Below the pieces are notes generated by a model that saw only the letters and a list, made by a program, of their open reading frames with translations, was not told the DNA's origin and ran no database searches. A DNA stretch of 64,000 bases from positions 2,418,001 to 2,482,000 of the forward strand of contig NZ_CP030064.1 of assembly GCF_003990725.2 (NCBI RefSeq), in the 5' to 3' direction. The first letter of the stretch is position 1, and every line of letters starts with the position of its first letter. The DNA is from Halorubrum sp. PV6 (GTDB lineage Archaea > Halobacteriota > Halobacteria > Halobacteriales > Haloferacaceae). Both the position numbers and the translations under genes were made by a program. Positions 60,928 to 63,408 of this stretch are shown in pieces.

Positions 60928-61794
60928 TTACTCCGTGAGTGTGAGCGAGCCGAGAGTCACGAACAGAGCCTCCTCCGTTCGGACGACCTCGCTCGCCTGT
61001 GCCGGGATCGTATTCAGCCAGAGGTCGAACCCCGGATCGGGTTCGACCGAGCGGCCGTCGGAAACGGCCGCCCGAATGTCGTCGGGCGAAAGCCCGAGCA
61101 TCTCCGGAAGCCCTCGTTCGGGCGCGCCGAAGGCGACGGTGTAGCCGCCGACCTCCCGCGCGTCCGAGACGATGCCGCCGAGCCGCGAGACGGAGAGTTC
61201 CTCCCCGTGTCGCGACGTCGCGACGGCCAAGCCGTCGCCGGCGAGCGCTTCCGACAGGTCCGCTTCCACGACCTGGAAACCGTCCTCCGGCTTCCCGGTG
61301 ATGCGGGCGCGGACCGGTTCTCTCGAAGAGACCCTGATGGTGACGCGCTCCCCCTGCTCGACCTCCATTCCGGAGGGCACGAGCAGGGAGATCGGGTGTT
61401 CCCGCAGCGGGGAATTGACCCGGACGCGGCCTTCAGGTCCGACCTCGGTCACGAGTCCCTGTGTTTTCGACTCTTCCCCGCTAGGGGTCGAGCCGGTCCG
61501 CCACGGCACGCGGAGCGGCGGGAGCACGCCGGCGTACCGGAGTTCGTCGCGCTCCCCCCAGAGATCCTTTCGGAGCCCCGGAGGGGTCGCGGCGTACCCC
61601 AGCACGGTCCGAACGTACTCGCCGCCCCGTCGCCGCTCGCCTTCCCCGTCGGGGAAGACGACCAGTCGATCCGCCCGGAACACCGCCGCCGCACGGGCGA
61701 CGTAGCCGAGTTTGCGAGTTGCCTCGCGGTCGTCTTCGGCTTCCCGGACGACCGAAGACGGAATACATATCGTGAGTCCGTCTTCGGTACGCAT
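60928..61794 (-). CDS. SPOUT-family RNA methyltransferase (DUF171-like)
   Basis: A 288-residue protein of the archaeal/eukaryotic SPOUT1 (C9orf114) group. The N-terminal part (DGLTICIPSSVVREA, RADRLVVFPDG) and C-terminal trefoil-knot part (GGYTVAFGAPERGLPEMLGL, FDLWLNTIPAQASEVVRTEEAL) make the SAM-binding SPOUT fold; an OB-like insert (KTQGLVTEVGPEGRVRVN, ISLLVPSGMEV) lies between. It heads the S10 superoperon, a conserved archaeal position, suggesting rRNA as substrate. Confidence 0.88.
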   Translation of the reverse strand: MRTEDGLTICIPSSVVREAEDDREATRKLGYVARAAAVFRADRLVVFPDGEGERRRGGEYVRTVLGYAATPPGLRKDLWGERDELRYAGVLPPLRVPWRTGSTPSGEESKTQGLVTEVGPEGRVRVNSPLREHPISLLVPSGMEVEQGERVTIRVSSREPVRARITGKPEDGFQVVEADLSEALAGDGLAVATSRHGEELSVSRLGGIVSDAREVGGYTVAFGAPERGLPEMLGLSPDDIRAAVSDGRSVEPDPGFDLWLNTIPAQASEVVRTEEALFVTLGSLTLTE

Positions 61795-62101: not shown

Positions 62102-62172
62102 GCACCGGTAGTGTAGTGGTATCACGCAACCTTGCCATGGTTGCAACCCGAGTTCAAATCTCGGCCGGTGCA
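62102..62172 (+). tRNA. tRNA-Gly (anticodon GCC)
   Basis: A 71-nt cloverleaf: acceptor GCACCGG pairs with CCGGTGC, D arm GTGTAGTGGTATCAC, anticodon arm CAACC-TTGCCAT-GGTTG with GCC, four-base variable loop CAAC, T arm CCGAG-TTCAAAT-CTCGG, discriminator A. CCA is not encoded. A TATA-like box lies about 35 nt upstream. Its 3' end is the left part of a longer hairpin, and its tail is copied several times downstream. Confidence 0.95.
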
Positions 62173-62203
62173 TCTTCTCGCTACGCTCGAAGATACACCG
62201 GCC
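62163..62203. repeat. 15-bp inverted repeat containing the tRNA-Gly 3' end
   Basis: Arms 62163-62177 and 62189-62203 match at 14 of 15 positions around the 11-nt loop TCGCTACGCTC. The left arm includes the acceptor 3' strand, so folding of a read-through transcript would compete with the cloverleaf. Confidence 0.8.
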
Positions 62204-62204
62204 T

Positions 62205-62235
62205 GACTCCCCGCTCGCTGCGCTCGCGGGGAGTC
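62205..62235. repeat. 10-bp perfect inverted repeat
   Basis: Arms gactccccgc (62205-62214) and gcggggagtc (62226-62235) flank the 11-nt loop TCGCTGCGCTC, which differs from the previous loop by one base. Confidence 0.8.
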
Positions 62236-62246
62236 TCGGCCGGTGC
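62234..62246 (+). repeat. Exact 13-nt copy of the tRNA-Gly 3' end
   Basis: tctcggccggtgc equals tRNA positions 62159-62171. A T-run (62247-62250) follows. Confidence 0.8.
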
Positions 62247-62276
62247 TTTTCTCACACAACGTAAGCAATCACCGAG

Positions 62277-62358
62277 AGAGATTTGAACGCTATCAGTCGC
62301 GCGCAGCGGACGAAGCGAGCGAGCACGTCTGATTCTGCGTTCAAATCTCTGCCGGTGC
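62277..62358. repeat. 20-nt tRNA-Gly tail copy inside a long inverted repeat
   Basis: 62339-62358 matches the tRNA T-arm and acceptor end (62152-62171) at 19 of 20 bases. Fourteen bases of it (62337-62350) recur inverted at 62277-62290, giving a hairpin with a 46-nt interior. Confidence 0.8.
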
Positions 62359-62401
62359 CTCCCTACGGTCGTGTGCCGCCCGGCTTCCCGCTCGCTGCGT
62401 C

Positions 62402-62469
62402 GCCGGCGCTGCGCGCCGGCTGCCAGAGAGACCAGAGGTCTCTCGCTGCTCACGGGAGTCTCGGCCGGT
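62402..62469. repeat. Two short hairpins and a fourth partial tRNA-Gly tail
   Basis: Hairpin 62402-62420 (7-bp arms gccggcg/cgccggc) and hairpin 62426-62444 (8-bp arms gagagacc/ggtctctc) precede tctcggccggt (62459-62469), an 11-nt copy of the tRNA 3' end. Confidence 0.7.
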
Positions 62470-62574
62470 ATGATTCATCCATTTAAATGAAAGCGTGAGC
62501 CGCCGGCGAGCGAACCGACCGCCACTTCTCCGCGACCGGTAGTTTCAATCGGCGATCCGCCGAACCGGTTGGAT

Positions 62575-63408
62575 ATGACCGTTCCAACCAAGACGCTCCC
62601 GAGCGGCGCCGAGTTGCCGGCGCTCGGACTCGGGACGTACGACCTCGGCGACCACACGGCAGACAGCGTCCGTGCGGCGCTCGACGCCGGCTACGCCCAC
62701 ATCGACACCGCCGAAGGGTATCACAACGAGGCGGCGATCGGCGAGGCGCTCGCCGAGTACGACCGCGACGAGGTGTTTCTCACCTCGAAGGTGCTCGCGA
62801 AGAACCTCAACTACGAGTCGGTGATCGAGTCGTGTGAGGCCTCGCTCGACCGACTCGGCACCGGCTATCTCGATTTATACCTCATCCACTGGCCGAACCC
62901 GGCAATCTCGCTGCGCGAGACGCTGCAGGCGATGGCCGAACTCCACGACCGGGGGCTCGTCCGCGACGTCGGCGTCTCGAATTTTAGCGCCTACCAACTC
63001 AGCTGCGCGCACCACGTCGCGGACGTGCCGATCGCGGTCAACCAGATCGAGTACCATCCCTGGTTCCAGCGCCCGGATCTCGTCGACTACTGCCACGAGT
63101 CGGACACCGTGATCGAGGCCGCGGCCCCGCTCGCGCGGACGGCGGTGTTCGACGACGAGGTCGTCGCCGACCTCGCCGAGACGTACGACAAACACCCCGC
63201 GCAGGTCGTGTTGCGGTGGGCGCTCGACAACGACGTGGTCGCGTTACCGCGGTCGGCGACCCCGGAACACGTCCGGGCCAACGCCGACCTCGACTGGGAG
63301 CTCGACGCCGCCGACCGGCGGCGACTCGACGGGCGCGACCGCGACGAACCGGTGTACGACACCCCGGCGCGCGACTGGACGAGCGACGTGTACGGGATCG
63401 AGCAGTAG
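62575..63408 (+). CDS. Aldo/keto reductase
   Basis: A 277-residue NAD(P)H-dependent (alpha/beta)8-barrel reductase. The catalytic tetrad is visible: Asp and Tyr in HIDTAEGYHNE (about 43-53), Lys in VFLTSKVLAKN (near 73) and His in LYLIHWPNP (near 107). GVSNFSAYQL and NQIEYHPWFQRPDLVDYC are AKR signatures; PRSATPEHVRANAD near the C terminus binds the cofactor phosphate or adenosine. Resembles 2,5-diketo-gluconate reductase-type AKRs; the carbonyl substrate is unknown. Start ATG 62575 is preferred to a TTG two codons earlier. Confidence 0.93.
   Translation: MTVPTKTLPSGAELPALGLGTYDLGDHTADSVRAALDAGYAHIDTAEGYHNEAAIGEALAEYDRDEVFLTSKVLAKNLNYESVIESCEASLDRLGTGYLDLYLIHWPNPAISLRETLQAMAELHDRGLVRDVGVSNFSAYQLSCAHHVADVPIAVNQIEYHPWFQRPDLVDYCHESDTVIEAAAPLARTAVFDDEVVADLAETYDKHPAQVVLRWALDNDVVALPRSATPEHVRANADLDWELDAADRRRLDGRDRDEPVYDTPARDWTSDVYGIEQ

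Follow-up and report, generated by a model that had tools for sequence, protein, structure and literature searches.

The window, by which we mean the whole stretch of 64,000 nucleotides analysed here from Halorubrum sp. PV6, contains a tRNA-Gly(GCC) gene followed on its 3' side by three small units that extend to position 62469, and every unit ends with a direct tail copy (Table 1). The units measure 74-112 bp and represent two classes. Class S, as seen in this genome and at the orthologous locus, comprises hairpins with GCTNCGC loops and a tail of 13-15 nt, and class L, about 118 bp long, opens with a spacer or hairpin, after which come the T-loop and T-stem in inverted copy (T'), a conserved core with covarying stems, and a direct copy (T) of tRNA nt 52-73 ending at the tRNA 3' end. 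In the second unit copies of the tRNA T-loop/tail flank the core (GCGCGCAGCG to GAGCACGT), one of them inverted and the other direct, and from the tRNA onward the tails of the locus are oriented T, T', T, T', T, T. A preliminary description of this DNA had reported the three direct tail copies, and all of them are confirmed as claimed. The inverted copy that it placed at 62189-62203 does exist as a 15-nt arm, 93% complementary to 62163-62177, but its tRNA-derived part is restricted to 62196-62203, and the longer inverted tail copy of unit 2 is absent from that description.

Table 1. Features of the tRNA-Gly(GCC) locus, in window coordinates
Feature	Position	Strand	Basis
tRNA-Gly(GCC) gene	62102..62172	+	ARAGORN; Rfam RF00005, 65.4 bits
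tRNA nt 52-73, from T-loop edge to discriminator base; the part copied in core-bearing units	62151..62172	+	identity profile, 49 units
Unit 1 (class S), hairpin with loop TCGCTACGCTC	62172..62194	+	
Unit 1, short inverted tail copy CACCGGCC	62196..62203	-	
Unit 1, hairpin, perfect 10-bp stem, loop TCGCTGCGCTC	62205..62235	+	
Unit 1, direct tail copy, 13/13	62234..62246	+	
Unit 2 (class L, 62247-62358, 112 bp), leading spacer	62247..62269	+	
Unit 2, inverted tail copy T'	62270..62288	-	
Unit 2, T'-core-T hairpin	62277..62351	+	covariance model R1 match, 66.8 bits (contig 2480277-2480351)
Unit 2, conserved core GCGCGCAGCG-GACGAAGCGAGC-GAGCACGT	62299..62328	+	core pattern match (contig 2480299-2480328)
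Unit 2, direct tail copy, 19/20	62339..62358	+	
Unit 3 (long-form class S), spacer; nested hairpins at 62402-62420 and 62427-62443	62359..62458	+	
Unit 3, direct tail copy, 11/11	62459..62469	+	

The region is rich in secondary structure, with two 11-nt loops at 62178-62188 and 62215-62225; 62102-62475 folds as DNA better than 100/100 shuffles (z -8.0), as does 62160-62475 folded as RNA (100/100, z -6.3). The sequence CTCGGCCGGTGC, with at most one mismatch, occurs eight times in the window against 1.75 expected, a count reached in 0/100 shuffles. The ORFs that cross the units, of 90 and 67 aa, are mechanical only, and for this reason we call the units apparently non-coding; downstream of the array, the ORF at 62575-63408 is read as a putative aldo/keto reductase. 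A second tRNA-Gly(GCC), at contig position 2181842, is followed by a first hairpin identical to that of the window and by a second one longer by about 50 bp, and this extra sequence in unit 1 of the paralogous locus recurs nearly identical inside unit 3 of the window. Elsewhere in the window, the Rfam L4-Archaeoglobi ribosomal-protein leader (RF03135) matches at 61334-61436 on the minus strand with 74.4 bits (gathering threshold 34.5), inside a 288-aa ORF (60928-61794, minus strand) and not in an intergenic leader.

Tail copies are a recurrent feature of the tRNA genes of this genome. Using the 46 tRNAs found with the Rfam model, we searched for exact copies of at least 11 nt of each tRNA's own tail within 700 bp and took the expectation from the tails of the other tRNAs. 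Downstream, 17/46 tRNAs have direct copies, 32 in all, against 2.9 tRNAs and 3.1 copies expected, a count inflated by one tandem tRNA pair, which is also the artefactual source of the single direct copy found upstream; inverted copies downstream number three against 0.6. Counted on both strands, GAGCGNAGCGA has 25 occurrences in the 700 bp 3' of tRNAs, at 13/46 of them (one occurrence shared by the tandem tRNAs at 116697 and 116800 being counted twice), and none in the 700 bp 5'. Some arrays contain perfect tandem units: three of 122 bp behind tRNA-Phe (63569), two of 135 bp behind tRNA-Tyr (1711557), and two of 81 bp at 2689362. The tRNA-Tyr units, found at 1711557-1711900 and in two further stretches (two genera in all), differ from the other units read in including a longer, degenerate copy of the tRNA, with the core region interrupting its T-arm. 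In a genome of another family, tail copies stand at 11 of the 30 tRNAs fetched (46 in the genome) against 2.4 expected, whereas a genome that lacks the core pattern has them at 2 of 30 (45 in the genome) against 1.3, one of the two being a tandem tRNA. This core-less genome nevertheless has GAGCGNAGCGA four times 3' and never 5' of the same 30 tRNAs, which indicates that the loops alone are independent of the core. The preliminary description had also suggested searching the genome for hairpins with the loop TCGCTRCGCTC next to other tRNAs. The tRNA-adjacent placement is indeed non-random, but the bare loop is not enriched genome-wide, with 17 matches against 36 for the reversed control, and was dropped as a family marker. 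A hairpin-A consensus regular expression, which was found at 4/46 tRNAs only, was likewise dropped.

The conserved core provides a more specific handle on the family. We searched with the pattern GCGCGCAGYGN{0,30}GAGCACGT, using the reversed pattern as a control. In the PV6 genome there are eight matches, 8/8 of them 3' of tRNAs and on the tRNA strand (control 0), and across the genus the pattern is present in 49/52 genomes (control 0 in 52). Among 30 of these 49 genomes, from each of which one locus was fetched, the first core follows a co-oriented tRNA at a distance of 51-182 bp in 25 cases, and the remaining five comprise a coding-like chance match, a contig edge, and three loci with other DNA before the array. 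At the level of the order, 117/195 genomes and 49/66 genera contain the pattern (control six matches in five genomes), and all 30 loci fetched from the 117, again one per genome, lie in tRNA 3' flanks, 27 co-oriented and three with the core inverted. The commonest exact 22-mer, GCGCGCAGCGAAGCGAGCACGT, gave a similar picture in named genomes: among the 123 matches listed, from 120 stretches, 101 lie within 600 bp 3' of a co-oriented tRNA. Nine of the other 22 have haloarchaeal T'- or T-like arms, six of these with fewer than 250 bases of upstream sequence to read, and 13 belong to different sequences, mainly repeats of Planomonospora/Planobispora type and of alphaproteobacterial type. The former type accounts for seven stretches, six of them with names, and the latter for hairpins flanked by GGGGAGGTCGAC and CGGGTGGGG in three stretches, one from an alphaproteobacterial MAG; no tRNA lies within 600 bp of the 22-mer in either set. 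One contig filed under a Bacteroidetes MAG (QS_9_68_14) has the 22-mer 69 bp behind a tRNA-Val(TAC) and is probably a misbinned haloarchaeal contig. A link to viruses was rejected: 109 IMG/VR stretches match the core pattern, nearly all of which we judged by eye from context to be chance coding matches; one is the putative provirus end described below (L237), and another holds a hairpin resembling that of the alphaproteobacterial MAG.

A covariance model (R1), built from 45 diverse units out of 118 distinct ones, extends these results. At E<=0.01 it finds 14 matches in the PV6 genome, all behind tRNAs and 13 of them within 350 bp. The fourteenth, at 304327, lies 1.9 kb behind tRNA-Ala(CGC) and is followed by the tail of that tRNA. 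The intervening stretch (302450-304326) is AT-rich, has ORFs of 235 and 229 aa and contains none of the genome's Phage_integrase (PF00589) matches; it is perhaps a small integrated element. Five weaker matches (E 0.019-0.73) comprise four in tRNA arrays and one, at 613714, outside. In a census of the phylum with stricter filters (E<=1e-5), 40/246 genomes match, all 40 of them within the order, of which at least three members have no match. The window locus is thus one case of an order-wide family in the Halobacteriales, and the suggestion of the preliminary description that a tRNA-tail-derived palindromic repeat family shaped the region is borne out, as the same architecture recurs at many tRNAs.

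Class L units are sharply delimited with respect to the tRNA. In 49 units (duplicates, five units with poor T copies and units without a tRNA being left out of the profile), the direct copy T is 80-100% identical to the host tRNA over nt 52-73, with identity at 35% just before and 45-59% just after this stretch; since many tRNAs have GG at positions 52-53, the 5' edge of T may be element sequence. In 132/140 non-redundant arrays, one or more T copies match at 15/22 positions or better, and successive tails have a median spacing of 118 bp (quartiles 112-128.5), which unit 2 of the window, at 112 bp, fits. Where an array has at least two tail copies (58 arrays), fidelity is higher in the first copy in 35 cases and in the last in 6, with 17 ties. 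The inverted copy T' also follows the host. Its summed match to the host T-loop in 62 units is 571 against 494.5 (sd 6.8; 0/2000 permutations reach it), and with one unit per isoacceptor (23 units) it is 209 against 181.7 (sd 4.1; 0/5000). This tracking concerns the T-loop half of the tRNA. The idea that T' also copies the acceptor half was rejected, as the unit's own tail beats at least 95% of the others in 10/61 units for T' versus 53/61 for T.

The hairpin formed by these parts is conserved as a structure. In 147 non-redundant units, the five pairs adjacent to the core are Watson-Crick in 80.5% of cases against 52.5% with shuffled arms, and those of the T'/T stem in 74.5% against 61.2%, with 0/2000 shuffles reaching either value. 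In the 45-unit alignment, both sides change in 16/24 pairs and 0/500 shuffles reach any of five measures, these counts being uncorrected for relatedness. The pairs of the core itself hardly vary because the core was used to select the units, and they are thus uninformative on covariation. Mismatches in the T'/T stem are asymmetric: in 112 distinct stems the ratio of G.T to A.C is 3.24 against 1.58 in permutations (0/1000 reach it), which suggests that pairing takes place in the sense strand, either RNA or single-stranded DNA. At the apex, GNA triloops are found in 32/75 distinct cores against 8.2 (sd 2.7) in shuffles, a count from the matches listed, with coding-like and very divergent strings left out beforehand. 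They are enriched and not universal, ANG being found in 19 and GNG in 15 of the 75. The DNA mini-hairpin d(GCGNAGC) is unusually stable.

The orthologous locus in other species shows that units come and go. Among 31 tRNA-Gly loci examined, the reductase lies nearby in 12, each from a different species; the interval between tRNA and reductase start is readable in 12/12 and measures 100 to 902 bp. One species has no unit and another an inverted-tail remnant without a direct copy. Two have a single class S unit, and two more a class S unit followed by other sequence, which in one of them is a long unrelated insert. Three have a class L unit and then a class S unit, and the window genome and two others have the order S-L-S. 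Hence tail-bounded units are present, absent or reordered while the tRNA on one side is unchanged and the right flank remains recognisable. Base-for-base conservation, which the preliminary description had named as evidence against integration scars, is not what these 12 species show, and its suggestion of repeated gain and loss agrees with the polymorphism in units. A separate intergenic repeat with TCCAAAGCCCC(A/G)G lies between array and reductase at four loci, and also occurs in two stretches of the PV6 genome.

On balance, we lean towards regarding the region as an array of small, apparently non-coding cassettes that are gained and lost by recombination at the T-loop/3' end of the tRNA. 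Cassettes would be added, and removed, at the end of the array nearest the tRNA, through recombination within or next to the T-loop/tail, and each arrival would keep the tRNA intact, a tail copy marking each unit. The logic would be that of tRNA-targeting integrative elements, but with a cassette that has no gene of its own; the enzyme would act in trans, a tyrosine recombinase being the first candidate, or homologous exchange between tails could spread the units. A sharp tail boundary, co-orientation, an intact tRNA, fresher proximal tails and a core shared by many tRNAs are expected of repeated insertion at the T-loop/3' end. Among these lines of evidence, tRNA specificity, orientation, the sharp boundary, covariation and better proximal tails are established for class L, and presence/absence with differing order for both classes at one orthologous locus. 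Several observations count against this explanation. Local duplication and deletion of units clearly also happen, and loss between tails together with tandem duplication (the 122-, 135- and 81-bp copies) accounts for part of the polymorphism. In its acceptor part T' is not matched to the host tRNA, the tolerance of G.T over A.C in the T'/T stem points to a role of the sense strand, and the core-less genome still has GAGCGNAGCGA 3' of its tRNAs.

The main rival explanation is that the units are an RNA element, co-transcribed with the tRNA, whose T'-core-T hairpin acts in the precursor (in 3' processing, in sequestering the extra tail, or as a released small RNA like that of the E. coli tyrT repeats), the units being born by duplication and kept for their function. 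We hold this to be a real if less probable possibility, and one compatible with the cassette explanation. It agrees with the strong co-orientation with the tRNA, with the covariation of both sides in 16/24 pairs, and with the G.T/A.C ratio expected from pairing of the sense strand. However, single-stranded sense-strand DNA would leave the same mark, and the covariation counts carry no correction for relatedness. In addition, tail copies stand at a minority of tRNAs and the orthologous locus has from none to several units, which makes such an element dispensable at a given tRNA.

Returning to cassettes, a more specific mechanism is conceivable, which we consider doubtful. Here the gene-less cassettes would be strand-folded hairpins that mimic the T-arm/tail and are recombined, in the manner of integrons, into the T-loop of almost any tRNA by one trans-acting recombinase, with each arrival regenerating the tRNA and stamping the host tail on the unit. 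The hairpins are often capped by a GNA triloop and have a fixed C.A mismatch in the core stem. Structure-specific recombination of a folded strand is a feature of attC arrays; in our units, the covariation shows a maintained fold.

Archaeal integrases of the SSV/pNOB8 kind recombine at tRNA 3' ends and leave tail duplications, and the preliminary description had invoked them as the mechanism. For the units themselves this is not supported, given that they are about 118 bp or less, that the repeat in core-bearing units is tRNA nt 52-73, and that none of the eight Phage_integrase (PF00589) matches in the genome is at the locus, the distance exceeding 80 kb in every case. The classical integrase route is also awkward in itself, since a double-stranded circle of 118 bp would be hard to recombine. 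A related explanation is that repeated integration and then excision or decay of ordinary tRNA-targeting elements, of the SSV/pNOB8 or SNJ2-like kinds, left nothing but scars in the form of tails and attachment-site fragments. Larger integrated DNA does occur at such tRNAs. One of the three genus loci with other DNA before the array (L280) has an insert of about 8 kb behind tRNA-Gly(TCC), which ends in a 3' part of the tRNA that extends back into the anticodon arm. At another locus (L237) the array follows the 3' half of a tRNA-Gly, with a tail that also extends into the anticodon arm, in what reads as the putative end of a haloarchaeal tailed provirus. In L281 and L282, the other two of those genus loci, a putative integrase 3' end, interpreted from the sequence, precedes a 14-15 nt tail and the array; no cognate tRNA lies within the stretches fetched, and we infer two further cases of larger integrated DNA. 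The class S tails of 13-15 nt resemble this short kind, and the att site of SNJ2 is 14 nt long (PMC8371274). However, the tails of these larger elements differ from nt 52-73, and the spacers are not random decay, as the core, the near-constant length and the covarying stems are common to different tRNAs and genera. Three integrase matches of the PV6 genome are near tRNA genes, at 1.0 kb (tRNA-Met), 1.7 kb (tRNA-Ile) and 6.2 kb (tRNA-Pro), with no core in the stretches read around them, and where larger integrated DNA is found at such tRNAs it sits between tRNA and array; both observations suggest that the arrays are separate from such elements. We regard scars alone as an unlikely explanation. 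Least probable of all, in our view, is an artefact of replication or repair in which palindrome-promoted template switching copies the tRNA tail both ways and duplicates it in tandem: the alternation of T and T' copies, the perfect tandem copies and the inverted core at 3/30 order-level loci would fit it, but the near-constant unit length and one conserved core at many tRNAs across the order, with 14/14 good R1 matches of the PV6 genome behind tRNAs, are left unexplained and speak against it as the sole cause.

If the units are indeed mobile cassettes, they offer a simple natural system for asking how small a tRNA-targeting mobile unit can be and which enzyme moves it. They would also allow one to ask whether arrays of tails protect tRNA genes against larger elements or serve as decoys for them.

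Several known systems resemble the arrays in part. The tyrT locus of E. coli has tandem repeats of 178 bp that include 19 bp of the tRNA tail and encode rtT RNA, which is transcribed and released during tRNA processing. As in the haloarchaeal arrays, tandem units stand behind a tRNA gene and each contains a copy of the tRNA 3' end; compared by description, however, tyrT concerns one tRNA in one bacterium, whereas the haloarchaeal units are found at many isoacceptors, with a covarying core, an inverted T-loop copy and gain and loss between species. Transfer RNA genes are, according to PMC8371274, preferred docking sites of archaeal mobile elements, with 3' ends favoured and target regions that include the T stem-loop and the 3' end. 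The SSV, pT26-2 and SNJ2 elements, as presented there, repeat the tRNA 3' end and leave the tRNA intact, as do our units, which differ in having no integrase, a length of about 118 bp or less, a tandem arrangement and one core family at many tRNAs. A duplicated tRNA 3' end flanking the insert, typical of SSV/pNOB8 elements, is indeed seen after each unit, but a kilobase insert with an integrase gene or its fragments is not found in the 74-112 bp units of the window. Likewise, the short block of identity at the tRNA 3' end that is typical of SNJ2-like elements is present (13-15 nt in class S, 14-15 nt in L281 and L282), but an integrase within the unit is not, there being no PF00589 match at the locus.

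Non-autonomous elements offer another comparison. T' and T are inverted repeats as in a MITE, but they follow the host tRNA. SMR-A of Haloquadratum is about 110 bp long, with no transposase, terminal inverted repeats, targeted insertion and an unknown mode of mobilisation (PMC3119063). It thus resembles our units in size, absence of a transposase, inverted repeats, targeting and a haloarchaeal host, but it targets palindromes of IS605-type transposons and PATEs and not tRNA genes (PMC3119063). Insertion into such palindromes is not seen in the PV6 genome, where 14/14 R1 matches (E<=0.01) lie in tRNA 3' flanks. The attC cassettes of integrons, including archaeal ones (PMC9668308), are similarly arrayed imperfect palindromes that could fold single-stranded, with one conserved junction and one orientation; the terms Halobacteri* and haloarchaea* are absent from the main text of that paper. 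In our units no cassette genes or IntI were found. The consensus of attC junctions is GTTRRRY/RYYYAAC, which the consensus of the unit junctions, GGTTCRAATC, does not match. Because each known family considered fails a tested feature or could be tested only in part, we claim membership in none of them, and we found no description of this cassette family in the open-access papers searched, including passages of PMC3119063, PMC8371274, PMC9897764 and PMC9668308. Relative to known tRNA-targeting elements, what is new here is a unit without a recombinase, of near-constant length, with one core family across many tRNAs.
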